A stretch of DNA of 52,420 bases from a virus. The stretch's first letter is position 1. Each line of letters starts with the position of its first letter. The notes under the pieces are model-generated. The model saw only the letters and a program-made list of their open reading frames with translations, was not told where the DNA came from and ran no database searches. The DNA lies in IMG/VR virus record IMGVR_UViG_3300030329_005130, positions 1-52,420 of that record; one strand, given 5' to 3'. Below, piece after piece: positions 1,149 to 38,074 of this stretch. A program made the position numbers and the translations under genes.

Positions 1149-1172
1149 TTAAGAAAGAGATGAATTTGGGGC

Positions 1173-1201: not shown

Positions 1202-1258
1202 ATAGACACTGGACGGAGCGACAACGCTCAGTCAACTGGAAAAGAAAGAAAGAAAAAC

Positions 1259-2320
1259 ATGGCAATCGACTTCAAGAATCTTCTGACCGTCCTTCCCCTC
1301 GTTACTGACGCGGGGCATCCTGTACTTCTTCGTGGACGTCACGGTATTGGTAAGTCCTCTGTGGTTTATCAGTATGCCGAATCTCTCGGTATGCCGATTG
1401 TGGAGCGTCGTGCTTCGCAGATGACCGAGGGCGACCTTTTGGGTCTTCCCACCGTGGATGAGGGTGTGACTTCCTTTTGTCCTCCCGACTGGTTTGCGAC
1501 TGCTTGCGATACCGGCGTGGTTCTCTTCCTCGATGAGGTAGACCGTGCAACCCTGGAAGTTCGACAGGGCATCTTTGAGCTTTGTGATTCTCGCAAGCTC
1601 GCCGGTCACGCTCTCCACCCGGATACGCTGATTTTCGCGGCTGTCAACGGTGGCACTCATGCGGGTGCGGCTTCTTATCAGGTTGGCGAGATGGACCCTG
1701 CCGAGCTTGACCGTTACACGGTTTTCGATGTTGAGCCTTCGGTGGATGATTGGCTTTCCTGGGCACAGTCCAACTGCGATGCTCTGGTGACGGACTTCAT
1801 TCGTAACAACGTCGAGCATCTTGAGCACAACGATGACCCGGAGCCTAACAAGGTTTATCCTTCGCGTCGTTCGTGGGCTCGATTCTCCGATACGGTGGGT
1901 CGCGGTGGAATGCTGGAAGCTGGACAATCGAATCCGGTTGTTTTCTCGCTTGCTTCTGCTTATCTCGGCTTTGAGGCTGCGGTTGCTTTCAACGATTTCG
2001 TTGCGAACTACAGCAAGGTCGTGACTGTCTCCGACATTCTCGATAAGGGACAGACCCCGGATATTGACCTTAACGCGCACTGCGCTTTGATTGATAAGCT
2101 GGGTGCCTCCGAGCGTCTTGCGAATGCGCTGAATGAAGGCGAGATTACCAACCTCGCGACTTACTTCACTTCGCTTCCTTCGGAACCTGCGATGAAGCTT
2201 TGGACCGTTGTCGGCAACGCTTGCCAGGACAATGCTATCTCTCTGCACTCGGCGGAAGATGCGAGCGGTCGTAAGGTTGGTTCCTACCTTGTTGAAATTC
2301 TGACCGGCGACTCGGTATAG
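1259..2320 (+). CDS. MoxR-type AAA+ ATPase
   Basis: This 353-residue AAA+ ATPase has Walker A GRHGIGKS (26-33), Walker B VLFLDEVDRA (about 89-98) and a sensor-like AAVNGG segment, as in MoxR/RavA-type ATPases. These usually act as chaperone-like machines on a partner with a VWA domain, and the next gene encodes exactly such a protein. An upstream in-frame ATG at 1160 precedes the promoter's -10 box, so translation must begin at 1259, which follows a purine-rich GGAAAAGAAAGAAAG stretch. It has its own promoter. Related ATPase/VWA pairs occur in large phages from memory; the substrate is unknown. Confidence 0.88.
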   Translation: MAIDFKNLLTVLPLVTDAGHPVLLRGRHGIGKSSVVYQYAESLGMPIVERRASQMTEGDLLGLPTVDEGVTSFCPPDWFATACDTGVVLFLDEVDRATLEVRQGIFELCDSRKLAGHALHPDTLIFAAVNGGTHAGAASYQVGEMDPAELDRYTVFDVEPSVDDWLSWAQSNCDALVTDFIRNNVEHLEHNDDPEPNKVYPSRRSWARFSDTVGRGGMLEAGQSNPVVFSLASAYLGFEAAVAFNDFVANYSKVVTVSDILDKGQTPDIDLNAHCALIDKLGASERLANALNEGEITNLATYFTSLPSEPAMKLWTVVGNACQDNAISLHSAEDASGRKVGSYLVEILTGDSV

Positions 2321-2339
2321 TAAGGGATGAAGATTCCCC

Positions 2340-2368
2340 TTGACAGGGGATTTCAAATCTGCTATTAT
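2340..2368 (+). promoter_or_regulatory. Sigma70-type promoter, VWA/metallopeptidase-like gene
   Basis: TTGACA (2340-2345), 17 nt spacer, TATTAT (2363-2368), then AGAGACAGTGGGGAG covering the expected start and the ribosome binding site. It lies between the ATPase gene and its partner, so the pair is separately initiated. Confidence 0.82.
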
Positions 2369-2393
2369 ATAGAGACAGTGGGGAGAGCAGCGA

Positions 2394-3680
2394 ATGACTG
2401 AGCCGATGAAAACTGAAACTGAACAAACTGAGGAATCAGGGGTTATTGCCTTTGACCTTGGTTTGCACATCCATCGTCTTCTAATGGATGAACCTTTCTT
2501 TGCGGCACTTTCGCGTCGGATGGATAAGAAGCCTTCGGCTGCTATTCCAACTGCCGGTGTGATGGTGACTGAGGAAGGTAAGTTGGAGATGATTTACAAT
2601 CCTAAGTTCTTCGCGGGACTGGAGGATGCAGCAAAGAAGGATGTGCTAAAGCACGAATTCTATCACATTGTTTATCAGCATGTTACTGGTGGGCGATTCG
2701 CAGCATTCCGCGATATGAGCCCGCAAGAAAGGAAGTTGCACAATGTAGCGATGGACCTTTCTATCAACGGTCATCTTCCGAATCTTCCTGATATGGCCTG
2801 TTTCCCTGGTAAGGGTCCGTTTGAACATTTGCCTGCTGGCAAGTCTGCCGAATGGTACTTGTCTGAGCTTCGCAAGATGCAGAAAGAGCAGCCGGAAGGT
2901 GAAGGTAATGGCGAAGGTCAAGGCGGTGACGGTGAAGGCCAGCCCGGTGGAGGTGGCGGAAGTCCCCTGGATGATATGGATTCTTTTGATGACCACGGTG
3001 GATGGGGCGAAGCCGATGAACAGGCAAAGCAGATTGCTGAGGAGCGTGTAAAGGAGTTTATCAAGGATGCGGTTGAAGAGGCAAACTCTTCTTCCCGTGG
3101 ATGGGGTTCAGTTCCTGCCAGTTGTCGCAAGGAAATCATGGATGGTATTTCCACTAAGGTTGACTGGCGCAAGGTCCTGCGATACTTCGTGAAGCAAAGC
3201 CAAAAGGCAAACAAGCGAAGCACTGTTCGTAAGATTAACAAGCGGTATCCTTACCAGCATCCCGGCAAGAAGTCTACGCGAACCGCAAAGATTGCTATTG
3301 CCATTGACCAGTCGGGCTCTGTTTCGGATTCGATGCTTGCTGCTTTCTTCGCGGAACTCAACTCGCTCGCAAAGATTGCTGAGTTCACTGTCATTCCTTT
3401 CGATACTCGTGTCGATGAGAGTCTGAACTATGTTTGGAAGAAGGGAATGCAGCGCAAGCGTGAACGTGTAATGCACGGTGGAACTTGCTTCAACGCTCCC
3501 ACGAACTTCGTGAATGAGAAGGGCGGATTCGACGGTCTTATCATTTGCACCGATATGGAGGCACCGAAGCCGGTTCGCTGCAATGTTCAGCGTCTCTGGA
3601 TTACCGATGAGTACAACGGGCAGCGTCCTTATTTCAACCCGAAGCCCGAACGAATGATTATCGTTCCTACCGAAAGGTAA
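2394..3680 (+). CDS. DUF2201-like VWA protein with HExxH motif
   Basis: This 428-residue protein has an N-terminal metallopeptidase-like helix, HEFYH at 87-91, and a Gly/Glu/Asp-rich flexible linker at about 168-205. A C-terminal von Willebrand A-like domain follows, with MIDAS motif DQSGS at 305-309. This order matches the putative-metallopeptidase/VWA-like (DUF2201) family that pairs with MoxR ATPases. The upstream neighbour is that ATPase. The start at 2394 lies 26 nt after the -10 box and follows GGGGAGAG. Proteolytic activity is not certain, because in the family the HExxH region may be structural. Confidence 0.85.
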   Translation: MTEPMKTETEQTEESGVIAFDLGLHIHRLLMDEPFFAALSRRMDKKPSAAIPTAGVMVTEEGKLEMIYNPKFFAGLEDAAKKDVLKHEFYHIVYQHVTGGRFAAFRDMSPQERKLHNVAMDLSINGHLPNLPDMACFPGKGPFEHLPAGKSAEWYLSELRKMQKEQPEGEGNGEGQGGDGEGQPGGGGGSPLDDMDSFDDHGGWGEADEQAKQIAEERVKEFIKDAVEEANSSSRGWGSVPASCRKEIMDGISTKVDWRKVLRYFVKQSQKANKRSTVRKINKRYPYQHPGKKSTRTAKIAIAIDQSGSVSDSMLAAFFAELNSLAKIAEFTVIPFDTRVDESLNYVWKKGMQRKRERVMHGGTCFNAPTNFVNEKGGFDGLIICTDMEAPKPVRCNVQRLWITDEYNGQRPYFNPKPERMIIVPTER

Positions 3681-8547: not shown

Positions 8548-9306
8548 ATGAAAGTTACTAACACAGTATGGCACTGGAGGTGGAAGAATCACCTTCAAGT
8601 CCTTAAGGAAGCCAAGGGAGAAGCAGGATATTTCCCTTGGCTCAAAGAAATTCAAGCCACCGACGACTTTAATGAAATACAAACCATCCTAGAGTCTGAC
8701 CGTTTCAAAAAACTTGGTACCGGTTCTTTTCGAGCCGTGTATCGGCCCGTTGATGACCCGGATCATGTTATCAAAATGATTCACGAACCTGACGACTATA
8801 AGGCGCAGATGAATGAAGACGACTTCAACACCGCCAAGCGGTATCCTCTTATCTTCCCCCGCGCGTACGCACACGCTGATGACTTCTCGTGGGTTGTAAT
8901 GGAGCATATCCCCCAGATCTACTATACGGAGGATCTGGACAAAGTGCTTGATAAGTCTTTCCCCGCAGAGAAAGAAGCCATATTAAAGTCGCGACAAGAC
9001 GCGGATCTCAATCCTGCCGACCCTTTTCACATCTTGAAGATGATCATGGGATCCTTTCGGTATGACCGAACCAAACATCCAGACGATGACAAATCTAAAA
9101 GCGCTGGGATTGCTCAGGAACTGGGGCTCCTGCTGTCCCGCGTAGCAGGCCCTGCGTACCAAGAGCTAAGTAAAGCCATGCACGAGTTTAATATTGACAA
9201 GTATGAGATTGGCAGAGGCAATATTGGACATGATAGCGAGGGTAACTTCAAAATTATTGATTCCTCAATCTTTAACCTAGATTACGGCGGGGACGAGGAC
9301 TATTAA
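8548..9306 (+). CDS. Kinase-fold protein with degenerate catalytic loop
   Basis: This 252-residue protein has the landmarks of a protein-kinase fold. There is a Gly-rich loop GTGSFRAVY (57-65), a VAIK-type lysine in HVIKMI (K76), a hinge WVVMEHI (115-121) and a late NIGHDSEGNFKIIDSS segment (225-240) at the place of the catalytic loop and DFG. The HRD motif is absent (YEIGRGN), and DFG reads DSS. N225 and D238 remain as possible metal ligands. It may be an atypical kinase or a pseudokinase. TACGGAG lies ahead of the ATG. Similar proteins occur in marine phages from memory. Confidence 0.75.
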   Translation: MKVTNTVWHWRWKNHLQVLKEAKGEAGYFPWLKEIQATDDFNEIQTILESDRFKKLGTGSFRAVYRPVDDPDHVIKMIHEPDDYKAQMNEDDFNTAKRYPLIFPRAYAHADDFSWVVMEHIPQIYYTEDLDKVLDKSFPAEKEAILKSRQDADLNPADPFHILKMIMGSFRYDRTKHPDDDKSKSAGIAQELGLLLSRVAGPAYQELSKAMHEFNIDKYEIGRGNIGHDSEGNFKIIDSSIFNLDYGGDEDY

Positions 9307-10368: not shown

Positions 10369-12303
10369 TTATGAATCGCGCCATAAATTATTCGAAGCAA
10401 ACTTAATTACTTCTTCGGCTGAGTCCTCGTTATAACCGTAGTTGTCAATTAAGGTCTGAACCATGGCGTTAAACTTCTTCTGTTGTTTAACATCACGAGA
10501 CTTAGACTTGGTGACAATACGAGAGATGTCTCTTACCGAGGCAACCAACTTAGCTTCAATAGCCTCGCGGAGAGGACCGTAAGAACGCCAGTCAATAACC
10601 TCACCTCTGCGAAGCTTGGCAAACATGTAAGAAGTAATATCAGCACGGAAGTTGTTCTTAGCTGAGCCCTTGATACCAATCTGCTCCTCAATTGAGGCCA
10701 AGAATTTCTCGTCAGCGTCCATTTCTTCATTGGTCACACGATCCTTGACCTTCGTGTTGTTAACGTAAGCTTCAGCGTGATCAAGATAGTTGTTGAAGAG
10801 AGACTCAGCCTGCTCTTCATAAGCAGTGACAAATGCCTTTGTAATTTCCTTCTCAAGAATGGAAAGATACTCTTCGTGAAGAACCTTCTGTAGGAACTCT
10901 AGGCAGCGCTTACGCTCGTCTGGATTAACAATCTGCTCCTTAACCTGCTTGATGAGAGACTCGCGAATAGAGATTGGTGTAATCATATTCTTTGTGGAGT
11001 CAGCAAGAGCAGCATCAATCGCCTTCATAATGAAACGAGTTGAGATGCCAGTCATACCCTCATCCTCAACTTCTTCGCGAAGGTCTCTGATATCAACCTT
11101 TTTGATAAGGCCCTTCTCGACAATCTCTTGACCGTTGTAAATCTTCATCTTGGTGAGAGCATCAACCTTGTTGGAAGGCTTGAGGCGAGAAAGAACGGAG
11201 AACATTGCAGCCACCTGAAGTGTGTGTGGTGCGATATGACTATCGAAGTCCGAACGACCGATAAGCTTCTCATAAATCTTTATCTCCTGATCTACTTCAA
11301 GGCAGTAAGGAACATTGACACGGACAATACGATCAAGGATAGCTTCGTTTGTGTGCTCAGCCTTGAATTTGTTCCATTCAGCTTCGTTGCAGTGAGCAAG
11401 AATGACGCCATCAAAGTAAATCATTGCCTGCTTACCAGGAGAGGGAACTGACTTTTCCTGGGTTGCGGTAATCATTGTGTGAAGGAACTCAATCTCGTTC
11501 TTGAAGACCTCAACGAATTCAACAATGCCTCGGTTACCAACGTTGAACGCTCCGTTGAGCGAAAGAACTCTCGGGTCGTCTTCTGGGTACAAGTCCAGCT
11601 TTGAAATATCCTCAGAGCCGATAAGAAGGCTGGTGTCCTGTGTGTTGGGATCCATTGGGGGAACAACGCCGACACCCTTGCGGCCGCGGACAGAAAAAGA
11701 GGACTCAGTGATTGGGAACTTAGTGAAATCGCCGCCAAACTCATTAATAAGCCTGTGACGACATACGGGACAAAGGTCACCTTCGATCTTGATGTTGTAC
11801 GTGTCGGCAAATTCGGCGCGTAATGAACGTGGGATAAGGTGAAGTGGCTCCTCGCGGATTGGGCAGCCATCCAAAGTAAAAATTGGGTCGCACTCTTCAA
11901 GCGCTCCCTTAATGTGTTCTACAAGAGCAGACTTACCGGCACCTACCGGACCCAAGAGAAGAAGAACCTGACGACTCTCCTCGCCCTTCATCGCGGCAGA
12001 GTGAAGGAAGCGCACGACCTTTTCTAGTGGGCGCTCCATTCCGAAGAACTGACCGGAGAAATAATCGTATGTCTTTACGGTCTCGCCATTGAAAAGCTTA
12101 TTACAACGAGCATCAGTCTCATCCAAGACAGTGACCCCTTCTCCAATAATCTTTTCGTAAAGTCTTTTGTGAGCAAGCACCGGAATATCTCGGTCTTCCT
12201 CAATTAGTTTTAGGTAGTCTTCCAATACCCCGGAGAACTTTTCTCTCTTCTTACTCTCACGGTGTTCCCTAACCGATTCGAGGAATTTCTTTGTTGTGGT
12301 CAT
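10369..12303 (-). CDS. prkA: PrkA/YeaG serine protein kinase
   Basis: This 644-residue protein matches PrkA (YeaG of E. coli). It has an N-terminal AAA-type domain with Walker A GPVGAGKS (118-125) and the family's conserved PLHLIP, CPVCRHRL and DEAR-like segments. The C-terminal kinase-like domain ends DNYGYNEDSAEEVIKFASNNLWR. Length is normal for the family (about 640). ATG 12303 lies one base after the spoVR stop and is preferred over a start seven codons upstream inside spoVR. In bacteria PrkA acts with YeaH and SpoVR/YcgB in stress, stationary phase and nitrogen limitation. Here all three form one operon in a phage-like setting. Confidence 0.95.
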   Translation of the reverse strand: MTTTKKFLESVREHRESKKREKFSGVLEDYLKLIEEDRDIPVLAHKRLYEKIIGEGVTVLDETDARCNKLFNGETVKTYDYFSGQFFGMERPLEKVVRFLHSAAMKGEESRQVLLLLGPVGAGKSALVEHIKGALEECDPIFTLDGCPIREEPLHLIPRSLRAEFADTYNIKIEGDLCPVCRHRLINEFGGDFTKFPITESSFSVRGRKGVGVVPPMDPNTQDTSLLIGSEDISKLDLYPEDDPRVLSLNGAFNVGNRGIVEFVEVFKNEIEFLHTMITATQEKSVPSPGKQAMIYFDGVILAHCNEAEWNKFKAEHTNEAILDRIVRVNVPYCLEVDQEIKIYEKLIGRSDFDSHIAPHTLQVAAMFSVLSRLKPSNKVDALTKMKIYNGQEIVEKGLIKKVDIRDLREEVEDEGMTGISTRFIMKAIDAALADSTKNMITPISIRESLIKQVKEQIVNPDERKRCLEFLQKVLHEEYLSILEKEITKAFVTAYEEQAESLFNNYLDHAEAYVNNTKVKDRVTNEEMDADEKFLASIEEQIGIKGSAKNNFRADITSYMFAKLRRGEVIDWRSYGPLREAIEAKLVASVRDISRIVTKSKSRDVKQQKKFNAMVQTLIDNYGYNEDSAEEVIKFASNNLWRDS

Positions 12304-12304
12304 G

Positions 12305-13612
12305 CTAAAACTCCCATATTTCATCTTCCACTATTGTGATTAATTTTACACTATCTCCCCAAAGAGTTTCAATAAATTCGAAAACCTTTCGGGCATAATT
12401 CAACTCTATATCCCTACCGTCATGTTCATGAACAAGACAAAGGGTGTTATCTTTCTCTACCTCGTCGACAAAGACGACGGGTAATCTGTTGAGACCAACA
12501 TTTCCAATCATGGCATCTCTAACATTTTCCCAGCCTTCTCCGTCAGATATGTCGTCTACAACAGACGACTGCTTCTTTTTATCAAAAGAGTATGAGAAAT
12601 AGTTGTTCTCTTTCATAAACTCTTCATCCATGTAGAAACGAAGAAACGTTATATCATTGTGGACTTCTCGGATTGTCATTGCTTCCTCAAAGCCTTTCTC
12701 TTCAATGATCTTCTGGAACAACTTATAACCCAGGTGGTAAGGGTTGAGTTGCCCCAAGTGCGGTCGAATAACCTGATTGTGTAGCTTAATAAAGGGAAGA
12801 TACAAACTATCAGGCAAATTCAACTCGTTAATAATCTTTTGGTGGATCGTACAAGCCCATCCTTCGTTCATAACCTTGGTCAGAGCCTGAGGAATGAAGT
12901 ATTTGGACGATTCCTCAACAATAAGGATAAGATTTCTTTCCCATTCTTCCAAATGTTTGCTGTTCTCGGCAATAAACCGTAATAGGTTGTACTCTGGGCG
13001 CAAAGGAACCTTGGATAAGTCCGGTTTGTAGTTAATATTCTCAGCCATTTTGTCTTTTTCAATCTCAAGAACCTCCTCACGGGTCTTATATTTGATTCCT
13101 GGATATCTTGGAACCTGATACTTGATTGAATGCGCTGCGTCCAAAATCTTCTCAACTCTATCAATCCCGATTGAAGGATCCTCAATTAGCTGACGTACGT
13201 ATTTGGCGGCTGATTTAAAGCTCACAATGATGTTAGCTGGGTCTGTATGCGCGAACATACGGTTCTGTTTGAAGAAATCCGAGTGACCAACACAGTGCGC
13301 CATCGTCAAAATGTGAATGTAGAGAGCGTTTTCTCTCATCAAGTATGCGATAGACGGATTTGAGTTAATAATCATCTCATAAGGTAGTCCGGTCTGGCCC
13401 ATATTGTAAAGTGTGTGGGTTCTTTCGTACTCTTTTCCGTACGACCAGTGGCGATAATGGGTTGGAAGTCCCGTATAAGCCATCGCTCCAAGCATTTCAG
13501 CGTAATCAATGATCTCATAATCAATCGGGAACCAGTCTAAACCAAAATCTTCGCCAACGCGACAGATTTTGTCATCCCATTTTTGCAAATCTGCAACTGT
13601 CCAGTCACTCAT
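12305..13612 (-). CDS. spoVR: SpoVR/YcgB family protein
   Basis: A 435-residue SpoVR family member. Family signatures include GLDWFPIDYEIIDYAEML near the N-terminus and the HYRHWSYGKEYE, NMGQTGLPYEMIINSNPS and AHCVGHSDFFKQN motifs. The His-rich centre and C-terminal VHEHDGRDIELNYARK also fit. ATG 13612 is one base after the yeaH stop, so the longer frame from 13672 is not used. Slightly shorter than bacterial YcgB (about 510) and near B. subtilis SpoVR. Biochemical function is not established even in bacteria; it is genetically tied to PrkA and YeaH. Confidence 0.94.
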   Translation of the reverse strand: MSDWTVADLQKWDDKICRVGEDFGLDWFPIDYEIIDYAEMLGAMAYTGLPTHYRHWSYGKEYERTHTLYNMGQTGLPYEMIINSNPSIAYLMRENALYIHILTMAHCVGHSDFFKQNRMFAHTDPANIIVSFKSAAKYVRQLIEDPSIGIDRVEKILDAAHSIKYQVPRYPGIKYKTREEVLEIEKDKMAENINYKPDLSKVPLRPEYNLLRFIAENSKHLEEWERNLILIVEESSKYFIPQALTKVMNEGWACTIHQKIINELNLPDSLYLPFIKLHNQVIRPHLGQLNPYHLGYKLFQKIIEEKGFEEAMTIREVHNDITFLRFYMDEEFMKENNYFSYSFDKKKQSSVVDDISDGEGWENVRDAMIGNVGLNRLPVVFVDEVEKDNTLCLVHEHDGRDIELNYARKVFEFIETLWGDSVKLITIVEDEIWEF

Positions 13613-13613
13613 T

Positions 13614-14852
13614 TTACTTACTCCCGCCGAAAAGTGTTTTAAATGCCAACCAAATATGTTCTGTTTGTCCAATCATTACTCTCTTAAACTTATTATCAGT
13701 AATTGGTTTCAATTTGGACCACAAATTATCCATTTCTTCGTTTTTCCACGCTGAAAAATTGGCCCAGGGGCTGGTTTTAAACCTATCATCTTGTAGGGAT
13801 TCATCATCCAAGCCCTTATAGTGCTCATTTATTTCACAATAAGCCGTTAATTGACTGACTTCTTTGATTTCTTTAAACAAATCAATGCACTTTTCGTTGT
13901 CAGATGCCCAATTTTCACCATCGCCACAGTAAAATGTATAAATATTCCAAGCATTTGGGTGAAATTCTTTCTCAACAATCTCCATTTGTCGATTAAGTGC
14001 CGAAGAGATGATAGTTCCGCCGTATGTGCCGACTTTAAAGAAGTCATCTTCGTTTACTCGCTCGGCATGAGTGGAGTGGGAGATAAAAACGACCTCAACT
14101 CGCTCGTATCGGTGGTTCAAAAACTGATAAAGAAGGAAAAAGAAGGATCTTGCAAGATATTTGCGGTCCTGAGACATCGATCCGGACACATCCATCAAGA
14201 AAAAGATGACTGCTGATGAGTTTTCCTTTGCCTTGGGCTTGATGTGATGATATTTCATGTCATCTTTGTGAAAAGGGAAGCGCTCATCGGACTCAGGGTC
14301 GTAAGCGCCGGTCTTTTCAGCCATTTTTTGGCGTCGAATCTTTCTTTTTAGAGTTTCCTTCTTTGAAAGTCTCGGTCGGATGCCCTGGAAGCGATATCCT
14401 TTGCGCTTTACGGTCTCCTGGGTGATGAAGCGGAACTGTTTCTTCTCTAAATCTGGGAGTTCGAGGTCAGCGAAGAGATATTCAGCCAATTCCTCAAGAG
14501 TAACCTCCACATCGTAGTATTGATCGCCTTTTTTATTGCTTGCCTTGCCAGTTCCCTGTCCAGACCCCTTCTTCGCACGTTGTTTACCAATCTTTTGACC
14601 TCTTTTAAGCTTATGATCGCCGCCAGATCCAACAGTCTTGTTTTTCTTGCCAGATCCATAGACAAAACGATACTCTTTGAGTCCTCTAACAGGAATTCGA
14701 ATCTTTTTCTTGCCATTTTGCCCGATAATTGACTCGTCTGCAACCACATCTTTGATAGATTCTTTGATTGCTTTTTCGATCTTCTTTTTGTGTCGGGTTC
14801 GGTCGCTAGCTGACCGGTCGACAATTGATTCATGCTTGCGAAATACGCTCAT
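13614..14852 (-). CDS. yeaH: YeaH/DUF444 VWA-domain protein
   Basis: A 412-residue DUF444 (YeaH) protein. The N-terminus has the RSASDRTRHKKKIEKAI pattern, then a Gly/Lys-rich linker (66-105). A C-terminal von Willebrand A-like domain follows, with MIDAS motif DVSGSMS at 221-227 and later TYGGT. It is the first gene of the minus-strand operon, with spoVR starting one base after its stop. In bacteria YeaH is thought to interact with the PrkA/YeaG kinase. Length is close to E. coli YeaH (about 427). Confidence 0.94.
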   Translation of the reverse strand: MSVFRKHESIVDRSASDRTRHKKKIEKAIKESIKDVVADESIIGQNGKKKIRIPVRGLKEYRFVYGSGKKNKTVGSGGDHKLKRGQKIGKQRAKKGSGQGTGKASNKKGDQYYDVEVTLEELAEYLFADLELPDLEKKQFRFITQETVKRKGYRFQGIRPRLSKKETLKRKIRRQKMAEKTGAYDPESDERFPFHKDDMKYHHIKPKAKENSSAVIFFLMDVSGSMSQDRKYLARSFFFLLYQFLNHRYERVEVVFISHSTHAERVNEDDFFKVGTYGGTIISSALNRQMEIVEKEFHPNAWNIYTFYCGDGENWASDNEKCIDLFKEIKEVSQLTAYCEINEHYKGLDDESLQDDRFKTSPWANFSAWKNEEMDNLWSKLKPITDNKFKRVMIGQTEHIWLAFKTLFGGSK

Positions 14853-15513: not shown

Positions 15514-16203
15514 ATGTCACGCTATACATGGTTATTGGACCCGGGTCACGGAGGCTTTATTGACGGAGTTTATCAAACTGCCGGAAAAAGATCTCCAGAG
15601 TTTCCGGATGGGTCTCGCTTATACGAAGGCGAGTTCAACAGAGATGTTGTGGCTAGAATAATGGATTTATGTTCTGGCAAATGGGGAGAAAAAGGTCATT
15701 ACCTTATGAAAGGCAAGCCACCTCTTAAAAGACCAAAGCATTGGCTTCGGTTTGCTTTAGATGCCGTGAACGTTGTCGACACAGAGGAAGATATATCACT
15801 TCGGCAGCGTGTTACAATAGCAAACAAAATCCACCAAGAAAAACAAAACTGTATTTATGTTTCTGTTCACTCCAATGCTTTTGGCAATGGGAAGGACTTT
15901 AATAGTGCAAGGGGGACCTGTACTTTTTACCATTATCGCAGCGCGACTGGTGAGGTGTTGGCTAAATCCCTTCAAAAGTGGCTTGCTGAATTAACTCCTT
16001 TCCGTGATCGAGGTATCCGAGCAAATGAAACTTGGGCAAACTTCTATGTTCTAAGAAAGACGCATATGCCTGCAGTCTTATCTGAAAACGGATTTATGAC
16101 AAACTTTGATGATGCTGTTAATTTGATGGACCCTAATGTTAGGCAGGCAATTGCAAACGCACATTATAATATGATGCTGGAGATTGAAGAGAATGGACTC
16201 TAA
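15514..16203 (+). CDS. N-acetylmuramoyl-L-alanine amidase (endolysin)
   Basis: A 229-residue Amidase_3 domain protein that cleaves the amide bond between muramic acid and the stem peptide. Zinc ligands are visible as H12 (DPGHGG), E38 or E40 (YEGEFN) and H119 (SVHSNA), with the catalytic Glu in LSENGFMTN (E191). There is no signal peptide or wall-binding domain, as expected for a holin- or spanin-dependent phage endolysin. It lies 18 nt after the HNH gene; TTTAGAGA precedes the ATG. Most likely the host-lysis enzyme. Confidence 0.92.
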   Translation: MSRYTWLLDPGHGGFIDGVYQTAGKRSPEFPDGSRLYEGEFNRDVVARIMDLCSGKWGEKGHYLMKGKPPLKRPKHWLRFALDAVNVVDTEEDISLRQRVTIANKIHQEKQNCIYVSVHSNAFGNGKDFNSARGTCTFYHYRSATGEVLAKSLQKWLAELTPFRDRGIRANETWANFYVLRKTHMPAVLSENGFMTNFDDAVNLMDPNVRQAIANAHYNMMLEIEENGL

Positions 16204-16766: not shown

Positions 16767-17084
16767 ATGGCTTACGTTGTAACTGAGGCTTGCATTAAAT
16801 GCAAATATACTGATTGTGTCGATGCATGTCCTGTGTACGCTTTTAGAGAAGCTCCGGATATGCTGGTTATTGATCCTGAGATTTGCATAAATTGTGATGC
16901 CTGTGAACCAATGTGTCCTGTGGATGCAATATATGGGGACTTTGAAATTCCGGCTGACCAAGTAGAATTTATACAGATTAACGAGAGGCTTTCCCGGACT
17001 GCCCCGGAAATTGAGTATTCTATAGACCCTCATCCAGAAGCAGAAAAGTATAAAAATATTAAAGACAAAAAACATCTCCTCTAA
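16767..17084 (+). CDS. fdxA: FdxA-type 7Fe ferredoxin
   Basis: A 105-residue ferredoxin with two cluster motifs. C9-x2-C12-x4-C17-x3-C21-P is the 7Fe pattern CIKCKYTDCVDACP, and C40-x2-C43-x2-C46-x3-C50-P is CINCDACEPMCP. This closely follows bacterial FdxA ([3Fe-4S] plus [4Fe-4S]), including the C-terminal FIQINERLSR segment. It starts immediately after the thioesterase stop, so the two are coupled. It carries electrons for an unknown partner; the window also encodes a radical SAM enzyme and a Rieske protein, but a link is only a guess. Confidence 0.93.
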   Translation: MAYVVTEACIKCKYTDCVDACPVYAFREAPDMLVIDPEICINCDACEPMCPVDAIYGDFEIPADQVEFIQINERLSRTAPEIEYSIDPHPEAEKYKNIKDKKHLL

Positions 17085-17389: not shown

Positions 17390-18304
17390 ATGAAGTACTT
17401 ATTTGAAAGCTGGAGTTCTTATCTAGAAGAAGACATCATCGAAGAAAAAGATGATCGTTGCACAAGAATCGCTAAACGTAAATATGATGTATGGCCCTCA
17501 GCATATGCTTCCGGCGCCGTTGTGCGCTGTCGAGCCGGTAAAATCTGGAAGGGTGTCAAAGAGGAGATCGAAGATGCCGATCTTGCAGAGAACACAGAGT
17601 ATGAAGACCTTCTTGAAGAAGCCAAAAAGAAAAAAGCCGGAACTGAATCTAGTAAAGAAAGTAGCCTCCGAGATTGGTTTGGACGCAAAGGCGCCAAGGG
17701 AAAGAAGAGTGGCTGGGTTGATTGTAATGCCCCAGACGGCAAGGGTGGCTATAAGTCTTGTGGCCGCGAGAAGGGCGAGAAGCGCTCTAAGTACCCTGCT
17801 TGCCGCCCAACTCCGGGGGCTTGTAAGGAAAAAGGAAAAGGCAAGTCTTGGGGCAAGAAAGGCGCCAAGAAGGAGAATCTTGATATGAACAGAGACGAAT
17901 TGTATGGCATTATCGCAGAAGAGGTTAATCGTCATCTTTTGGAGAACGATATTCTTCCTTACTTAACAGAAGCTTTCCTTGATGACGGTACCCCAGCGTG
18001 TGTTGCTTGCTTGGTAGAACAACTAGATACAGCTACCTGTGGCTGCCCTGATCTTGTCTACGAGGCAGAATACCAGGGTCGCAAGGTTACTCTCAACAAA
18101 CCCACGCGTGGAGATGTTAAAAAATTCAAAGTTTATGTCAAAGATCCGAAAACCGGAAATGTAAAGAAGGTTAATTTCGGTGATAAGAAGATGAGAATCA
18201 AGAAGTCTAATCCAAAGAGACGCAAGTCTTTCCGGGCTCGACACAACTGTGATAACCCAGGACCCAAAACAAAGGCACGCTACTGGTCCTGTAAGAAGTG
18301 GTAA
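17390..18304 (+). CDS. Putative packaged protein, DUF6321-DUF5872-like, with targeting peptide
   Basis: A 304-residue protein that starts with the 14-residue peptide MKYLFESWSSYLEE shared with four following genes. Next come a DUF6321-like segment (RCTRIAKRKYDVWPSAYASG, about 22-45) and a Lys/Gly-rich DUF5872-like segment (LRDWFGRKGAKGKKSGWVDC onward, about 92-155). From about 162, NRDELYGIIAEEVNRHLLEN begins a second unit, including PYLTEA and a Cys cluster (CVACLVEQLDTATCGC). A basic C-terminal module ends KARYWSCKKW. The internal IIAEE and YLTEA sites resemble prohead-protease sites, so it may be processed into two or three chains. First gene of the packaged-protein operon. Confidence 0.8.
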   Translation: MKYLFESWSSYLEEDIIEEKDDRCTRIAKRKYDVWPSAYASGAVVRCRAGKIWKGVKEEIEDADLAENTEYEDLLEEAKKKKAGTESSKESSLRDWFGRKGAKGKKSGWVDCNAPDGKGGYKSCGREKGEKRSKYPACRPTPGACKEKGKGKSWGKKGAKKENLDMNRDELYGIIAEEVNRHLLENDILPYLTEAFLDDGTPACVACLVEQLDTATCGCPDLVYEAEYQGRKVTLNKPTRGDVKKFKVYVKDPKTGNVKKVNFGDKKMRIKKSNPKRRKSFRARHNCDNPGPKTKARYWSCKKW

Positions 18305-18309
18305 AACAA

Positions 18310-18696
18310 ATGAAACTTATCCTTGAAAACTGGCGGCAGTATCTTACAGAAAGTTGGCGCGATACATCGTGGGAAAATGATGAGGGAAAGGTTACACTTG
18401 GAGAGATAGATGATTTCTTGGGAGACAAAACTATTGACATTAATGTTTTAGAACTTTCCAAACAAATACCTCCTCTTCCAACCAGAGGTGAGGAGCGAGT
18501 AGCAGCAGCGAGCTTAGAGTTTCCTATTATAGTCATCAAGAAAGATGGGCAGCTCAAGTATGTTTTGGATGGCAACCATCGGCTACAAAAAGCAATCAAT
18601 CAAGAGGTTGAAACAATAAAGGCAAAGATCCTTGATGTCTCCGAGGAAGCTGAGACACCCGAGAAGTTTAAGAAAATGTTTGGAGGAGTAGAGTGA
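18310..18696 (+). CDS. Putative packaged ParB-like protein with targeting peptide
   Basis: ATG 18310 is chosen over a start four codons upstream because it begins exactly with the shared peptide MKLILENWRQYLTE. The remaining 114 residues form a ParB/sulfiredoxin-like domain: a beta strand (FPIIVIKKDGQLKYVLDG), then the signature DGNHRLQKAI and VETIKAKIL. In this superfamily the DGNHR segment binds nucleotide (CTP or ATP). If the peptide is a capsid-targeting signal, a 114-residue ParB-like domain would be delivered with the DNA. Confidence 0.8.
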   Translation: MKLILENWRQYLTESWRDTSWENDEGKVTLGEIDDFLGDKTIDINVLELSKQIPPLPTRGEERVAAASLEFPIIVIKKDGQLKYVLDGNHRLQKAINQEVETIKAKILDVSEEAETPEKFKKMFGGVE

Positions 18697-19130
18697 AACT
18701 CCTACTTGAAAACTGGAAAAGGTTTTTGACAGAGGCAAAGAAATACATTTGCCCCCCTGCCACACAGGATTTAGAATTAAACACAAAGAACCGTGATTCT
18801 GCCATCAAAGCAGAGCACATTCAATACGGACCCCTTAATCTTGCTGATGAAGCATACTATGATAGACTGGCAGAGCACTGGAACACAACCGTTGAGGTTG
18901 CAAAACAATCAATGTGCAATAATTGCGCGGCGTTTGATATCTCGCCAAGAATGGACGAATGCTTTCCAGGGCCCATTGAAGATGAAGAAGGTCGGCTAGG
19001 TTATTGCTGGATGCATCATTTTAAATGCCACAGCGCGCGCACGTGCTATACATGGGCTGCGGGTGGCCCTATTGATACAGATGAAACATCTCACGAATGG
19101 CAGGACAGAAGTAATATCGGGAAGGACTAG
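18693..19130 (+). CDS. Putative packaged Cys-rich protein with targeting peptide
   Basis: GTG 18693 overlaps the previous TGA and begins the shared peptide as MKLLLENWKRFLTE, with A15 after the presumed cleavage site. The body has a conserved-looking Cys/His pattern: CNNCAAFDIS, then DECFPG, then GYCWMHHFKCHSARTCYTW. A metal site of up to six cysteines and three histidines is possible. I recall the 'YCWMHHFKCHSARTC' segment from other marine phage proteins, with no known function. 145 residues in total. Confidence 0.8.
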   Translation: MKLLLENWKRFLTEAKKYICPPATQDLELNTKNRDSAIKAEHIQYGPLNLADEAYYDRLAEHWNTTVEVAKQSMCNNCAAFDISPRMDECFPGPIEDEEGRLGYCWMHHFKCHSARTCYTWAAGGPIDTDETSHEWQDRSNIGKD

Positions 19131-19132
19131 TC

Positions 19133-19543
19133 ATGAAACTAATCCTTGAAAACTGGCGGAAGTATTTGGTAGAAAACCAGGAAGTGGGTTCTTTTGGAAA
19201 ACATCAGGTGTTGCAGTCTAGCGAATCTAGTCCTTTCGGCGGCGACGTTATAGTTTATTCTGTAATGGATCCCGAGGGGAAAACAAAAGCTACGTTGGAC
19301 GTAGTTCCTCACGAAGATGGCGTGAGAGTCAAATATGCAAAAAAAGAATCAGACGCTGCTTTCTATATGACTGATTTCTATAAGTGGCTTCTCGATCATG
19401 TGGGGGTGCTATATAGTGATCCATCGCAATCGCCGGCTGGCACCAAAATCTGGACAAGACTGCAGCAGGATGATTCTGTAAATGTTGAAGAATATGATAT
19501 GCCTGGAGGTATGATGGGCGGCTGGAAGGTATCTAAGAAATGA
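19133..19543 (+). CDS. Putative packaged acetyltransferase-like protein with targeting peptide
   Basis: ATG 19133 starts 3 nt after the previous gene, with the shared peptide MKLILENWRKYLVE. The rest of the 136 residues has alternating strands (VIVYSVMDPEGKTKATLDVV) and the segment LYSDPSQSPAGTKIWTRLQQ. That segment resembles the 'LxSDxxxSxxGxxIWxxL' pattern of phage GNAT-like proteins. The acyl-CoA binding loop is not obvious, so acetyltransferase activity is uncertain. ATGA overlap couples it to the next gene. Confidence 0.75.
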   Translation: MKLILENWRKYLVENQEVGSFGKHQVLQSSESSPFGGDVIVYSVMDPEGKTKATLDVVPHEDGVRVKYAKKESDAAFYMTDFYKWLLDHVGVLYSDPSQSPAGTKIWTRLQQDDSVNVEEYDMPGGMMGGWKVSKK

Positions 19544-20523
19544 AACTCCTACTTGAAAACTGGAAGAACTTCCTAAACGAAGAAAAGAAAGGCGCTTACT
19601 CGTTTGATTATGACGAGACACTTATCAAGTATAAGACAGATCCTGAAGATCCTGAATTCAGCACCATATACGACAAGCCCCACGAAGAGAACATCGCCAA
19701 ACTAAGAGAACTCGCAGCTGCCGGTGAAACTGTTTATATTGTTACTTCCCGATCGAAACGCACAGGAGACAAGTATCCATGGGATACAGCACCAGAGCCA
19801 GAAGAGTTGGTTGCCGGTATGAATCTTCCCGTCAAGTCTATCCACTACACAAATGGAGATTTGAAAGCTGAAACTCTTTTATCTCTTGGTGTTATCGAAC
19901 ATTGGGATGATGACGAAGAAGAGATTGCGGCGGCCAAAGAAGCAGGCATAAAAGCAAACTTTGTCCGGGGAGATGAGGAAATACGTGAGACAATGCTGTC
20001 TATGTGGGCGAATAAACTTCAAGAAGCTGGGATTGAACCAGCACCTAAGATGAAAAAGTATCTTAAAGATCATCCATATATGGAGCCTGATGGACTGCAA
20101 GAACGTTGCCAGAAGGGTTATAAAACTCACCCCAAACGCAAAACTAAGAAGATGTACGGCAAGACGTACAGAAATTGTATCAAGGCCGAAGAAGGTAAGG
20201 ATCCTAAGACTGGAACTGGCAAGAAACCAAAAGGTTCAGGACGCAGACTTTACACCGACGAGGATCCAAGTGATACAGTGTCAGTAAAGTTCCGAACAGT
20301 TCAAGATGTAAAGGATACCTTATCAAAGAAATCCTTCAAATCAAAGTCTCACAAGCGTCAGTCACAGATTATTAATCTTATCCATCAGCGTGTACGGGCT
20401 GCCTATCAGAATGCTAAGGACCCTAAGACCAAAGCCAGATTGAAGAAAGTTCTTGATCACGCTGAGAAAAGAAAAGAAGCATCAAAAGAAAAAACTAAAC
20501 GATTACAAAAGAAAAAAGACTAA
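19540..20523 (+). CDS. Putative packaged HAD-like phosphatase fusion with targeting peptide
   Basis: A 327-residue protein with the shared leader MKLLLENWKNFLNE. Residues about 18-165 are HAD-like: motif I FDYDETL, motif II VTSRS and an acidic EHWDDDEEE near motif III. A basic C-terminal half follows. It contains ERCQKGYKTHPKRKTKKMYG and a later GSGRRLYTDEDPSDTVSVKF segment with RQSQIINLIHQRVRAAY, both of which recur in marine phage structural-type proteins. The C-terminal half could bind DNA inside the head. Phosphatase activity is plausible, since the DxD motif is intact. Confidence 0.82.
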   Translation: MKLLLENWKNFLNEEKKGAYSFDYDETLIKYKTDPEDPEFSTIYDKPHEENIAKLRELAAAGETVYIVTSRSKRTGDKYPWDTAPEPEELVAGMNLPVKSIHYTNGDLKAETLLSLGVIEHWDDDEEEIAAAKEAGIKANFVRGDEEIRETMLSMWANKLQEAGIEPAPKMKKYLKDHPYMEPDGLQERCQKGYKTHPKRKTKKMYGKTYRNCIKAEEGKDPKTGTGKKPKGSGRRLYTDEDPSDTVSVKFRTVQDVKDTLSKKSFKSKSHKRQSQIINLIHQRVRAAYQNAKDPKTKARLKKVLDHAEKRKEASKEKTKRLQKKKD

Positions 20524-21689: not shown

Positions 21690-22397
21690 ATGACTATTGA
21701 TTATAAACAACTTCAAGCGCTTGTAAAAGAAGCTATGTTTACAGGCGGCGGAATTAACGAGCCATCTGCTCCTGAAGGCGTTCCACACAGAATGCCTGCT
21801 GCCGATACAGAGACTCCGGAGCAGGACAAAGGAGATCCAGAGGCAAACAACTTATATGATCTCGCTCTCGTGGCTAGAGAGGCTACTGAGAAGCTCGTAG
21901 AGGCTCTTGATGAGCCGATCTATGACGGCGCCTATGAGCACGCTTTCAAGGCGTCTGCGTGCCTTAGAAAGGCTCTGAACGACCTAGAAGATGCTGGCGC
22001 TCATCCAATGCCTGACCAAAGAGTCGTGGCTCCTGCCAAGAGTCAGCAGCCATATGGCACCGGTGGATCCGGAGCTATGAATTACTACAGCATGGGTTAT
22101 GCTGATTTTGGTGGCGGTGTTGGGCTTGAGGAGCAAGATGATGCCCTTAAAGGTTTTGGGAGCGGAATTGTTACTCAACAAACACAAGCGAAAGGCGAAC
22201 TGGAAAAATCCAAAGCAATTGCAAAAGGCGATGCTTTAGGAGGGGTTGATGATAAAGAAAGAGGTATGTTGGTGCAGATTGAAAAGATCTTAACTGATAT
22301 AGCTGAAAAAGATGACCTTATAAGATATCGTAACGCACTGCAGGCTGTTCTTAAAAACCTTTTGAAAGTCTCTGCTAAACAACAGGAACAGAAATAA
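21690..22397 (+). CDS. Helical protein, putative packaged, 235 aa
   Basis: ATG 21690 lies one base after the previous stop. The N-terminus MTIDYKQLQALVKEAM resembles the leader helices of neighbouring genes, with LVKE|A as a possible cleavage site. A Pro/Gly-rich low-complexity linker follows (to about 55), then a helical domain with paired helices (ALVAREATEKLVEALDEPIY). Next is a Gly-rich middle (GTGGSGAMNYYSMGYADFGG) and a final helical region. No family recognised. Confidence 0.75.
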   Translation: MTIDYKQLQALVKEAMFTGGGINEPSAPEGVPHRMPAADTETPEQDKGDPEANNLYDLALVAREATEKLVEALDEPIYDGAYEHAFKASACLRKALNDLEDAGAHPMPDQRVVAPAKSQQPYGTGGSGAMNYYSMGYADFGGGVGLEEQDDALKGFGSGIVTQQTQAKGELEKSKAIAKGDALGGVDDKERGMLVQIEKILTDIAEKDDLIRYRNALQAVLKNLLKVSAKQQEQK

Positions 22398-22720
22398 TGA
22401 AAATCTCAAAAAACGAACTTAAAAAGATGATTGCTGAAGAGTTGAACGGCTCTTCTGTTTTGCTTGAAATGCCACAGATGAATACGCTGGATCCAGCCTC
22501 CAACAACTACGAGAAGGATCCAGACGGATACGAAGGCAACATGGCCAAGCGGTCACTTTACCATATGGCTGCGCAAGCACAGCAACTTCACGATATGCTC
22601 CATGATGACGAAAACCTTGAGCCTTGGGTTCAATCAAAGATCACCAAAGCAGCAGATTATCTTGAAAAAGCATTCAAGAGTATTTCATACGAAAAAGGTC
22701 CAGGGAAAGGTAAATTATAA
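22397..22720 (+). CDS. Small helical marine-phage-type protein, 107 aa
   Basis: ATG 22397 overlaps the previous stop (TAATG). The leader MKISKNELKKMIAEEL recurs in marine phage structural proteins from memory and ends in I-A-E|E. The C-terminal part (SLYHMAAQAQQLHDMLHDDE, then WVQSKITKAADYLEKAF) is a familiar helical module of unknown function that often occurs fused to virion proteins. Coupled to the next gene by TAATG. Confidence 0.8.
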   Translation: MKISKNELKKMIAEELNGSSVLLEMPQMNTLDPASNNYEKDPDGYEGNMAKRSLYHMAAQAQQLHDMLHDDENLEPWVQSKITKAADYLEKAFKSISYEKGPGKGKL

Positions 22721-34838: not shown

Positions 34839-36089
34839 ATGTCAGATAAGATTAAGATATTCACAATCAGTGATCACCCACTGTCTCCAAGTGGTGTGGG
34901 AACTCAAACAAAATACATTATCGAAGGGATGCTTAAGACTGGCAAGTACCAGTTTGTTTCCTTCGGAGGCGCGATTAAACATCCAAATCATAACCCTCAG
35001 AGAACTGAGCAGTGGGGCGATGATTGGGTTATATGGCCAGTCGATGGCTATGGCAACCATGATATGGTTCGCGCGATGATTCACCAGCAAAAGCCAGATA
35101 TTTTGTGGTTTATGACCGACCCTAGGTTTTACGAGTGGCTATGGGCGATTGAGAACGAAGTTAGAACACATGTGCCAATGGTCTACTATCACGTTTGGGA
35201 TAATTACCCATACCCGAAATTTAATCGTAAGTATTATCTTTCAAACGACCACGTTGCTTGTATTTCAAAAGTAACGCATGATATAGTCGCGACCGTGGCG
35301 CCGGAAGTGGATTCCTCTTACATCCCACACGCTGTTGATGGGGATATATTCAAGCCGGCAGCTGCTCAAGAAGTAAAAAACTGGAGAACTTCTAAAAATT
35401 TAGATGATAAATTTGTTTGTTTTTGGAATAGCAGAAATGCGCGCCGGAAACAATCAGGGACCTTAATCTGGTGGTTTAAGGAATTCTTAGATAAGGTTGG
35501 ACACGATAAAGCGTGTCTTATTATGCATACCGATGTCAACGATCAGCACGGTCAAGACTTGGAAGCTATAATTCATGAATTAGGGCTGACAAATGGAGAG
35601 GTCTTATTTTCACGAGATAAGGTTGGACCAGGAGATTTAGCTGCTATGTACAATATGGCAGATCTCACTGTGTGTATTTCTGATGCCGAGGGATTTGGGC
35701 TTTCTACATTGGAATCTTTATCCTGTGGAACACCGATACTAGTTAACATGACTGGGGGCCTTCAGGATCAAGTTACTGATGGTGAGAAGTTCTTTGGGAT
35801 TGGACTACAACCGGTATCAAAAGCAATAATCGGATCTCAACAAGTACCATATATTTATGAAGATCGTTTATCTAAAGAAGACTTTGTGAATGCTTTAGTG
35901 GAACTCTATGAAATGACTCCTGAAGCCAGACGAGAACTTGGCCTCGCCGGCCGCGCATGGTCAGAAGATTTATTTGGATTTGATAAGTTTATTCAAACAT
36001 GGGATGATTTGTTCACCTCAATATACGAAGAAAAAGGCTCTTGGGAAACCCGCAAGGGCTATGATGCATACGAAGTAAAGGTGTTTTAA
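34839..36089 (+). CDS. Glycosyltransferase family 4
   Basis: A 416-residue GT-B enzyme. It begins with a Gly-rich strand-loop (SDHPLSPSGVGTQTKYIIEG). The C-terminal donor domain carries ADLTVCISDAEGFGLSTLES, with the E-x7-E motif of GT4 retaining transferases. A nucleotide-sugar donor is expected; the sugar is not predictable. GGAACTT precedes the ATG. First gene of the 17-kb glycan cluster, coupled to the next gene by TAATG. Confidence 0.9.
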   Translation: MSDKIKIFTISDHPLSPSGVGTQTKYIIEGMLKTGKYQFVSFGGAIKHPNHNPQRTEQWGDDWVIWPVDGYGNHDMVRAMIHQQKPDILWFMTDPRFYEWLWAIENEVRTHVPMVYYHVWDNYPYPKFNRKYYLSNDHVACISKVTHDIVATVAPEVDSSYIPHAVDGDIFKPAAAQEVKNWRTSKNLDDKFVCFWNSRNARRKQSGTLIWWFKEFLDKVGHDKACLIMHTDVNDQHGQDLEAIIHELGLTNGEVLFSRDKVGPGDLAAMYNMADLTVCISDAEGFGLSTLESLSCGTPILVNMTGGLQDQVTDGEKFFGIGLQPVSKAIIGSQQVPYIYEDRLSKEDFVNALVELYEMTPEARRELGLAGRAWSEDLFGFDKFIQTWDDLFTSIYEEKGSWETRKGYDAYEVKVF

Positions 36090-38068
36090 TGTTAAAAAAA
36101 GTTTTAATAAAAGGTCCAGTTCTTTCCCGATCGGGCTATGGAGAGCAATCTCGTTTTGCTCTTAGATCTTTGCGATCACGTCCGGATCTTTTTGATATAT
36201 ATATCATCAATATTCCGTGGGGTCGAACAGGCCAAATTACAAACGATGATGAAGAAACTAACTTTATTCATGAAGCGACACTCAAGACGCAAAAATACAT
36301 CCAACAAGGAGGTCAGTTTGATGTTTCACTACAGATCACAGTGCCAAACGAGTTTGAAAAAATTGCACCCGTGAATATCGGGTATACGGCCGGAATTGAA
36401 ACAACCAAGGTCTCTCCACAATGGATTGCTAAGTCTAACGAGACGGTTGATAAAATAATTGTTGTCTCAAATCACTCAAAAAAAGTCTTTGAACAAACAA
36501 AGTATGACATAAAAGATGATAGTGGCAATGAACATAAAAATTGGGGACTACAAGTTCCCGTCACGACGGTTAATTATCCTGTTAGATTCCATGAATCCGA
36601 AGAGGTGAAGGTTGATTTCAAAACCAGCAAAAATTTTCTTACAGTTGCCCAGTGGGGTCCGCGAAAGAATTTAGATAACACTATTAAGTGGTTTGTTGAG
36701 GCGTTTATTGATGAGGAAAATGTTGGCTTGGTTGTTAAAACCAACACGGCGTCTGATTCAGTTATGGACCGCGAGTATACACAGGCGCGCTTAGAGGCGC
36801 TTCTAGCCCCCTATAAGGATCGTAAGTGCTCTGTATATCTAATTCATGGTGAAGTGTCTCCTGGGAACTTGGCGTGGCTCTACAAACATCCGACAATGAA
36901 GGCAATGATTAATATTGGCCACGGCGAAGGTTATGGCCTCCCGCTTTTTGAAGCTGCCTACCATGGATTGCCATTAATTACGACAACTTGGTCCGGACAG
37001 ATGGATTTTATTTGTAAGCCAAACAAGAAGGGCAAAAACTACCCCCGCGTCGTGAAAGTTGATTACGATATTAAGACAGTACAGCCCAGCGCCGTGTGGG
37101 ATGGGGTCATACAAAAAGATTCTATGTGGGCTTTTGCAAAAGAAAAGTCGTATAAGAACGCCCTAAAAGACGTCCTGACTAAAGAAACTCACTACCGCAA
37201 GGAAGCAAGAGTCTTACAGGATCATATATTAAACAAATTTACAAACAAAGATATGTATCATCAGTTTTCTGAGTTAGTATATGGAGAAAAAATAGTTGCC
37301 GTTAATACAGAGGATCTGCCAAAAATATCTTTAATAACCTCTGTCTATAAGGCATCCGAATACATAGAACAATTGCTTGAGGATACTACAAGACAAACTG
37401 TGTTTGAAGATAAGTGCGAATGGATAATTTTGAACGCAAACGAACCCGGTGATGATGAAGAGGAAATTATTCTTAAGTATGTAGAGCGTTATCCAAACAA
37501 TATTGTATACAAGAGGCTTGAAGAAGACCCGGGCCTTTATGAAACTTGGAATATGGCGATCAAGATGTCGGCTGGGGAGTACGTAACTAATGTTAACTGT
37601 GATGACCGTCGAGCCCCAGACGCTCTAGAAAAACAGGCAAAACTTCTGTTCTCTAGCCCCGGGGTCGACTTAGTGTATAATGATTCGTACATTACTCATG
37701 AACCCAATATGCAATGGGAAGATATAGATAAAAGCACAAGTCAGAAATATAATTTTGAACAATTTTCTAAAGAAGCGATGTTAAGAGGTAATTTGCCACA
37801 CAATAACCCAATGTGGAAGAAAGATCTGCACAGTAAGTATGGCTACTTTAATCAAAAATATCGCAGCGCTGCAGACTGGGATATGTGGCTGAGATGTGCA
37901 TTTGAAGGTGTCGTATTCAAGAAGCACCCTGAAACTTTAGGAGTTTATTATTTCAATCCTAAAGGTGTCTCTACAAATGTAGAACACAACTCGTGGAAAA
38001 AGAAGCAAGAAAGGGAGATATTCCAAACCTATCTGGCCGTGTATCAAGAACAAGAATCGAGCAGCTGA
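36089..38068 (+). CDS. GT4-GT2 glycosyltransferase fusion
   Basis: A 659-residue protein. Residues 1 to about 400 form a GT4 GT-B domain (VLSRSGYGEQSRFALRSL at the start, INIGHGEGYGLPLFEAAYHG later). Residues about 412-640 form a GT2 GT-A domain: PKISLITSVYKASEYIEQLL, then GLYETWNMAIKMSAGEYVTN and VNCDDRRAPDALE, where CDDR stands for the metal-binding DxD. Two transfer steps in one chain suggest an alternating or disaccharide unit. ATG 36089 overlaps the previous TAA. Confidence 0.9.
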   Translation: MLKKVLIKGPVLSRSGYGEQSRFALRSLRSRPDLFDIYIINIPWGRTGQITNDDEETNFIHEATLKTQKYIQQGGQFDVSLQITVPNEFEKIAPVNIGYTAGIETTKVSPQWIAKSNETVDKIIVVSNHSKKVFEQTKYDIKDDSGNEHKNWGLQVPVTTVNYPVRFHESEEVKVDFKTSKNFLTVAQWGPRKNLDNTIKWFVEAFIDEENVGLVVKTNTASDSVMDREYTQARLEALLAPYKDRKCSVYLIHGEVSPGNLAWLYKHPTMKAMINIGHGEGYGLPLFEAAYHGLPLITTTWSGQMDFICKPNKKGKNYPRVVKVDYDIKTVQPSAVWDGVIQKDSMWAFAKEKSYKNALKDVLTKETHYRKEARVLQDHILNKFTNKDMYHQFSELVYGEKIVAVNTEDLPKISLITSVYKASEYIEQLLEDTTRQTVFEDKCEWIILNANEPGDDEEEIILKYVERYPNNIVYKRLEEDPGLYETWNMAIKMSAGEYVTNVNCDDRRAPDALEKQAKLLFSSPGVDLVYNDSYITHEPNMQWEDIDKSTSQKYNFEQFSKEAMLRGNLPHNNPMWKKDLHSKYGYFNQKYRSAADWDMWLRCAFEGVVFKKHPETLGVYYFNPKGVSTNVEHNSWKKKQEREIFQTYLAVYQEQESSS

Positions 38069-38074
38069 TAATTC

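Follow-up and report, generated by a model that had tools for sequence, protein, structure and literature searches.

A shared 14-residue N-terminus on unrelated phage genes is a probable capsid-targeting sequence of a Far-T4-like lineage

The internal proteins (IPs) I, II and III of bacteriophage T4 are otherwise unrelated, and each begins with a short, MK-started N-terminal peptide, the capsid-targeting sequence (CTS), which is cut by the prohead protease gp21. The T4 proteins gp24, gp22 and gp23 also carry N-terminal propeptides that end in (L/I)xE and are removed by gp21. Here, we analysed a 52,420-base virus record from IMG/VR (IMGVR_UViG_3300030329_005130; a fragment, hereafter the window), in which five adjacent genes have in common a 14-residue N-terminus, M-K-x-(L/I)-(L/F)-E-(N/S)-W-x-x-(Y/F)-L-x-E, hereafter the tag. 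Comparison with other viral contigs shows that the tag is shared, conserved at the protein level, specific to viruses and linked both to the gp21/gp23/portal gene set and to a slot among the core genes. We propose, with a probability of roughly 0.85, that it is the CTS of a Far-T4-like lineage, which would dock proteins on the prohead core and be cleaved by gp21, the attached proteins (the cargo) being packaged and injected. The tag would thus be equivalent to the T4 CTS but specific to this lineage, in a system of larger scale than T4's.

In the T4 record, IPII and IPIII start with MKTYQEFIAE and IPI with MKTFKEFTSTTTPVSTITE, each followed, after the gp21 cleavage point, by an alanine. When the peptides are right-aligned on the cleaved glutamate, Y4, F7, I8 and E10 of IPIII stand over W8, Y/F11, L12 and E14 of the tag. 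Amber-suppressor mapping of IPIII traced targeting chiefly to residues 4 and 7 and processing to residues 8 and 10, and IPIII with Asp at position 10 is targeted yet escapes processing (PMC9026906). The conserved residues of the tag coincide with these four positions, as would be predicted for a peptide with the same two functions. Both systems have aromatic residues 6 and 3 positions before the terminal glutamate and an (L/I)xE end, T4 like the tag-bearing phages encodes gp21, gp23 and gp20, and in IPI the cleavage site has moved away, as in several tags here. In contrast to the T4 CTS, the tag contains four extra residues (an LLEN-type insert) and a nearly invariant tryptophan, and is also present on genes of a head-operon slot between portal and protease. 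It heads more than 150 cargo clusters, with up to about 14 genes per genome, whereas T4 has three IPs, although at least 10 internal proteins have been reported in T4 relatives (PMC12373910). As far as tested, the tagged cargo is not homologous to the T4 IPs.

The pattern recurs in other systems. T4 gp24 (MAKINELLRES) has the same spacing as the tag, hydrophobic-x-x-hydrophobic-(L/I)-x-E; unlike the tag, the propeptides of gp24, gp22 and gp23 belong to single structural proteins and not to a bank of genes sharing one tag. Giant phages of the phiKZ/SPN3US type contain many head (E) proteins whose propeptides are cut after glutamate and which are delivered to the host (PMC9026906, PMC10052503). 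The role proposed here for the tag would be similar, whereas the phiKZ motif is S/A-x-E and the propeptides are different and longer. We know of no common 14-residue tag on these E proteins. In Flavobacterium phage immuto (MENFDLKKFLVENKLT), an N-terminus (M)(E/AD)N(T)F(D/N)LKKFLVEN(K/R)LT, of the MENFDLKKFLVEN type, is common to four otherwise different proteins (NC_055915, at 1803, 103806, 117631 and 118632). Both immuto and the Methylophilales phage Melnitz (MQGFKTFLSEA, MTQKFSQFITEE) resemble the tag in having an N-terminal hydrophobic-x-x-(F/Y)-(L/I)-x-E, whereas their sequences differ from it and a targeting role there is putative.

The five tagged genes of the window all lie on the plus strand, each tag being identified from its open reading frame (ORF) and a pattern match. 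Gene 1 (17390..18304, 304 aa) starts with MKYLFESWSSYLEE (residues 1-14, 17390..17431; score of 22.5 against the position-specific scoring matrix, PSSM, presented below) and matches phrog_7595 and phrog_727, both of unknown function; its initial annotation as DUF5872-like found no confirmation in Pfam. Gene 2 (18310..18696, 128 aa), whose start codon is the ATG at 18310, begins with MKLILENWRQYLTE (18310..18351) and matches phrog_17560 (7e-10) and the ParB-like phrog_723 (2e-4), so that the ParB-like label first given to it survives as a weak resemblance. Gene 3 (18693..19130, 145 aa; GTG start, MKLLLENWKRFLTE, 18693..18734) belongs to the Cys-rich family CPPATQDLELNTKNRD, and the cysteines that had suggested this name are indeed conserved in its relatives, which carry the tag and have linkers 0-12 residues longer. 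An AlphaFold model of this protein (7 sequences) predicts a helix at residues 2-14 with a mean pLDDT of 54, too poor for use. A PDB profile search with the same protein gave no match, for which reason the name 'high potential iron-sulfur' borne by distant matches was not adopted. Gene 4 (19133..19543, 136 aa; MKLILENWRKYLVE, 19133..19174) has no Pfam or PHROG match, and the GNAT-like label proposed for it is left without backing. The N-terminal domain of gene 5 (19540..20523, 327 aa; MKLLLENWKNFLNE, 19540..19581) is HAD phosphatase-like (polynucleotide kinase-like; phrog_415, 1e-8), in agreement with its earlier HAD-like label.

A degenerate DNA pattern of the peptide matched the window five times, always at these genes, and never matched in 100 dinucleotide-preserving shuffles, which rules out chance and base composition as the source of the tags. 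Without their first 14 residues, the five proteins are each assigned to a different cargo cluster, and descent of the entire genes from one ancestor is rejected as well. The initial annotation was thus right that five consecutive genes share a 14-residue start and are unrelated beyond it. The five tags are alike also at the DNA level, consistent with their spread within the genome by duplication or recombination. The homologue of the gene 1 cargo in immuto has another N-terminus, MGKVNKAYIENIIKEILSE, a difference that would be as expected for a module swap. A looser six-frame scan of the window found no convincing sixth copy. The protein encoded at 8548-9306 is homologous to kinase-like tagged cargoes of other contigs (phmmer, 8e-26) and has an altered N-terminus, MKVTNTVWHWRWKNHLQVLKEA, possibly a decayed sixth tag. 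A Fer4 ferredoxin-like protein (16767-17081) is encoded between an endolysin-like amidase (15514-16203) and the tag cluster.

Beyond the window, the ATG-started tag pattern is present in at least 120 stretches of IMG/VR. A PSSM built from 171 non-redundant examples has M1 at 100%, K2 at 99%, E6 at 99%, N7 at 82%, W8 at 97%, Y/F11 at 99% (Y 51%, F 48%), L12 at 83% and E14 at 100%. Conservation falls sharply after residue 14 and is near background beyond residue 15, and nearly all PSSM matches map to the second residue of an ORF or close to it. The tagged set comprises 292 non-redundant proteins in 155 cargo clusters, from marine viral contigs. The large viral genomes examined hold 2 to 14 tagged genes each (score >15), mainly in one or two clusters. 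The exact pattern gave 7 matches in 84,980 bacterial and archaeal genomes, and these head real ORFs only in two assemblies of metagenome-assembled genomes (MAGs). One is a viral-looking 16 kb contig with several tags (L214); in the other, the 'chromosome' of a candidate division WOR-3 MAG (CP070664), phage-type genes with the tag are found at two sites far apart (L217, L218) and may represent phage sequence joined into the assembly. No tag match was detected in the records of T4, HTVC008M or Melnitz, and we found no published description of the tag in the open-access literature.

Within the tag, phages differ freely in the codons used for leucine, arginine and tyrosine, and the DNA upstream is unconserved except for a weak ribosome-site signal. 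The selected unit is therefore the peptide, and an element acting at the DNA or RNA level is ruled out.

The 13 large tag-bearing contigs that match gp23 (PF07068) all encode a T4-type major capsid protein that is divergent and about 570-690 aa long. The closest isolates to the gp23 of one of them (G001) are immuto, Microcystis phage Mel-JY01 and Rhodothermus phage RM378, which belong to the Far-T4 neighbourhood (Far-T4 as defined in PMC4360716). Together with the T4-like head gene order of the tag-bearing contigs (terL-portal-...-gp21), this relationship assigns the phages, as judged from their sequences, to the T4 superfamily as Far-T4-like members. The window itself lacks gp23; its best-conserved tested protein (DUF6267) points to the T4 superfamily. 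The prohead protease anticipated by the initial annotation, a member of the gp21 family (PF03420), is encoded by 12/12 tag-bearing contigs of at least 139 kb and by three shorter ones, G014 (121 kb), G018 (99 kb) and G025 (81 kb); a lack of the protease, which the initial annotation had named as a refutation, is thus not what the lineage shows. G025 is the nearest relative of the window that we found, with 21 kb aligned at 81% identity and three of the same tagged genes.

In some 25 contigs retrieved through the tag, one tagged gene occupies a constant place, in the order terminase - portal - p277 - p179 - tagged gene - small membrane protein - gp21 - p139. To remove the bias of selection by the tag, contigs were also fetched by gp21 similarity alone, and 75 of these have both flanks of the slot. 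No gene occupies the slot in 44 of them; the other 31 have one, and every one of these 31 fillers bears the tag: 29 by score and two more, below the score threshold, as MSEMRLIIENWRSFRLVEN. The fillers represent 28 distinct proteins from 10 unrelated cargo clusters. This sample covers one clade, whose contigs are phylogenetically non-independent; the contrast is nevertheless complete. The corresponding interval of T4, from portal (gp20) to gp21, contains the prohead core proteins gp67 and gp68.

The initial annotation had also observed that the end of the tag fits the (L/I)xE cleavage rule, and this extends from five genes to the whole lineage. The frequencies at residues 11-14 are partly built into the pattern search, and a second scan was run without those residues. 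With both scans pooled, 131 of 156 non-redundant proteins have [LIVM]xE at positions 12-14, compared with a background of 1.9% per position; among proteins found only by the motif-free scan the figure is 17/29. Many tags without the motif at this place have it shifted by one residue (REFILTE, RKYMLKE, RQYLLTE). The slot tags have a conserved first part (MKLIMExW..Y/F), while the glutamate follows W8 at a distance of 6, 7, 8 or 10-12 residues. Even so, [LIVM]xE lies within W+5..W+12 in 28 of the 29 distinct slot tags (14% expected, P=3e-23), with a peak at W+6/W+7 and a return to background along the following 40 residues. Preservation of the motif despite a shifting distance argues for a protease site, as shifts of this kind would be incompatible with a helix face, and we read the tag as consisting of two separable parts. 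Its amphipathic residues 2-11 (hydrophobic L3-L5, W8 and Y/F11) would dock the new protein onto the prohead core. Cleavage by the gp21-family protease behind the glutamate of the terminal (L/I/V)-x-E, as a rule E14, would then release the cargo within the head as it matures; once free, the cargo would pass into the host together with the DNA and serve there in takeover or anti-defence, like T4 IPI-III.

Proteins that mature beside an active (L/I)xE protease are expected to avoid its motif in their bodies. Beyond residue 30, and corrected for composition, [LI]xE occurs in the cargo at 0.85 (0.78-0.92) of its frequency in other proteins of the same genomes, whereas the control ratios are 1.03 for the mirror motif E-x-[LI] and 1.09 for [LI]xD. 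[VFMY]xE is also somewhat low (0.90). The depletion is modest and concerns one of ten patterns, but it is the predicted one. Transmembrane-like segments are found in 2.7% of the cargo versus 8.4%. Pfam and PHROG searches with 150 cargo representatives matched nudix, zeta-toxin/AAA_33 kinases, nucleotidyltransferase, guanylate kinase, DnaJ, DEDDh exonuclease, M23 peptidase, LysM, DUF192, GNAT, ParB-like and deoxyribonucleotidase families; one representative is weakly SAM-lyase-like and most have no match. PADLOC gave weak, scattered matches only with the same 150. T4 IP1-3 each block a different GmrSD restriction enzyme (PMC12373910), and from these counterparts anti-defence and takeover factors would be the natural expectation for the cargo.

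The assignment of the tag as a capsid-targeting and processing signal, put forward in the initial annotation, thus draws on co-occurrence with the protease, the head-operon slot, the floating [LIVM]xE, motif avoidance in the cargo and the match to mapped T4 residues. Several observations weigh against it. The tag is longer than the T4 CTS, only the pattern is shared, and the peptide is too short for a homology test. At up to three mismatches, the exact tag is absent from immuto, Mel-JY01, RM378 and LR756508, the first three being the nearest isolates by capsid protein. Some tagged proteins have no [LI]xE nearby and would therefore keep the tag, and the residue following the cut varies widely (P1': E, Q, G, A, S or D), compared with alanine at T4 internal-protein sites. 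No enrichment of the T4-type late promoter motif TATAAATA was seen upstream of tag clusters. We found no virion proteomics or N-terminal sequencing of a tag-bearing phage in the open-access literature. Finally, gp21 was not found in the 52 kb of the window, so that for this fragment the argument rests on its relatives, chiefly G025.

The tags that lack [LI]xE, and the location of the slot genes within the head operon, where they could be structural, would also suit a peptide that targets the prohead core and usually stays on, with the motif as part of a helix and the tagged proteins as lasting constituents of the core or structure. We consider this unlikely, since [LIVM]xE is kept while its distance from W8 shifts by one residue or more, which rotates its position on a helix, since [LI]xE is avoided in the cargo and since every near-complete contig encodes the protease. 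The LLxxW core common to the tag and to gp23 N-termini (ELLNKWKPLLEG in T4, ALLSKWEKTGLLEG in the clade) raises another idea, that the tag addresses a different machine, for example by mimicking gp23 for delivery to a GroEL-type chaperonin or for gp23-like docking on the scaffold. This seems to us very improbable: the register after the tryptophan differs, delivery to a chaperonin leaves the [LIVM]xE end and the depletion in the cargo unexplained, and small, diverse enzymes have no obvious need for a phage chaperonin. The gp23 N-termini, suggestive as their LLxxW is, score below the tags and were rejected as the source of the tag.

Least credible of all is a peptide directed to membranes or host factors, or an element of translation that spread when gene starts were duplicated. 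The peptide is amphipathic and the window tags are alike in DNA, suggesting recent spread within the genome, but synonymous positions vary, the upstream DNA is unconserved beyond the weak ribosome-site signal, and the tag is present in 31/31 occupied head-operon slots. Membrane targeting in particular is disfavoured by the low share of membrane segments in the cargo.

A capsid-targeting tag may not be the only one in these phages. A second recurrent N-terminus, MK(L/I)TKxxL(R/K)xIIKEEL (type 2), heads other unrelated small genes in the same genomes (G002, G004, G006, G007 and G008), some of them directly after gp21. It fits the same formula, hydrophobic-x-x-hydrophobic-(L/I)-x-E, and may be a second capsid tag. 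A type-2 scan of viral contigs gave up to 4 copies per stretch among the matches listed. In the window, two neighbouring plus-strand genes start with MTIDYKQLQALVKEAM (21690..22397), possibly a type-2 tag, and with MKISKNELKKMIAEEL (22397..22720), of type 2. We tentatively suggest, at somewhat less than even odds, that Far-T4-like phages have a general prohead address system with at least two interchangeable tags (type 1, MKLLLENWRKYLNE; type 2, MKLTKxxLRxIIKEEL) and one formula that also fits the T4 IPs, gp24, immuto and Melnitz, so that any protein acquiring a tag would be packaged, clipped and injected. If this is true, the injected proteome of uncultivated T4-superfamily phages could be read from sequence.

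The rest of the window contains other gene groups. On the minus strand (10369-14852), genes for PrkA kinase, SpoVR and DUF444 (YeaH-type), which form a bacterial stress triad, are grouped on this phage contig. At 1160-3680, an AAA (MoxR/CobS-like) ATPase adjoins a DUF2201 metallopeptidase/VWA protein. About 17 kb (34839-52166) of glycosyltransferase-, methyltransferase- and radical-SAM-like genes, recognized by eye (the radical SAM gene at 47192 was confirmed), resemble a surface-sugar synthesis island.

The function of most genes of marine T4-superfamily phages is unknown. A readable head-address tag would mark those proteins that are carried into the cell with the phage DNA, and it provides a candidate catalogue of more than 150 cargo families, many of unknown function, for which mature N-termini directly after (L/I)xE are predicted. 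The tag also suggests a compact label for loading foreign proteins into phage heads.

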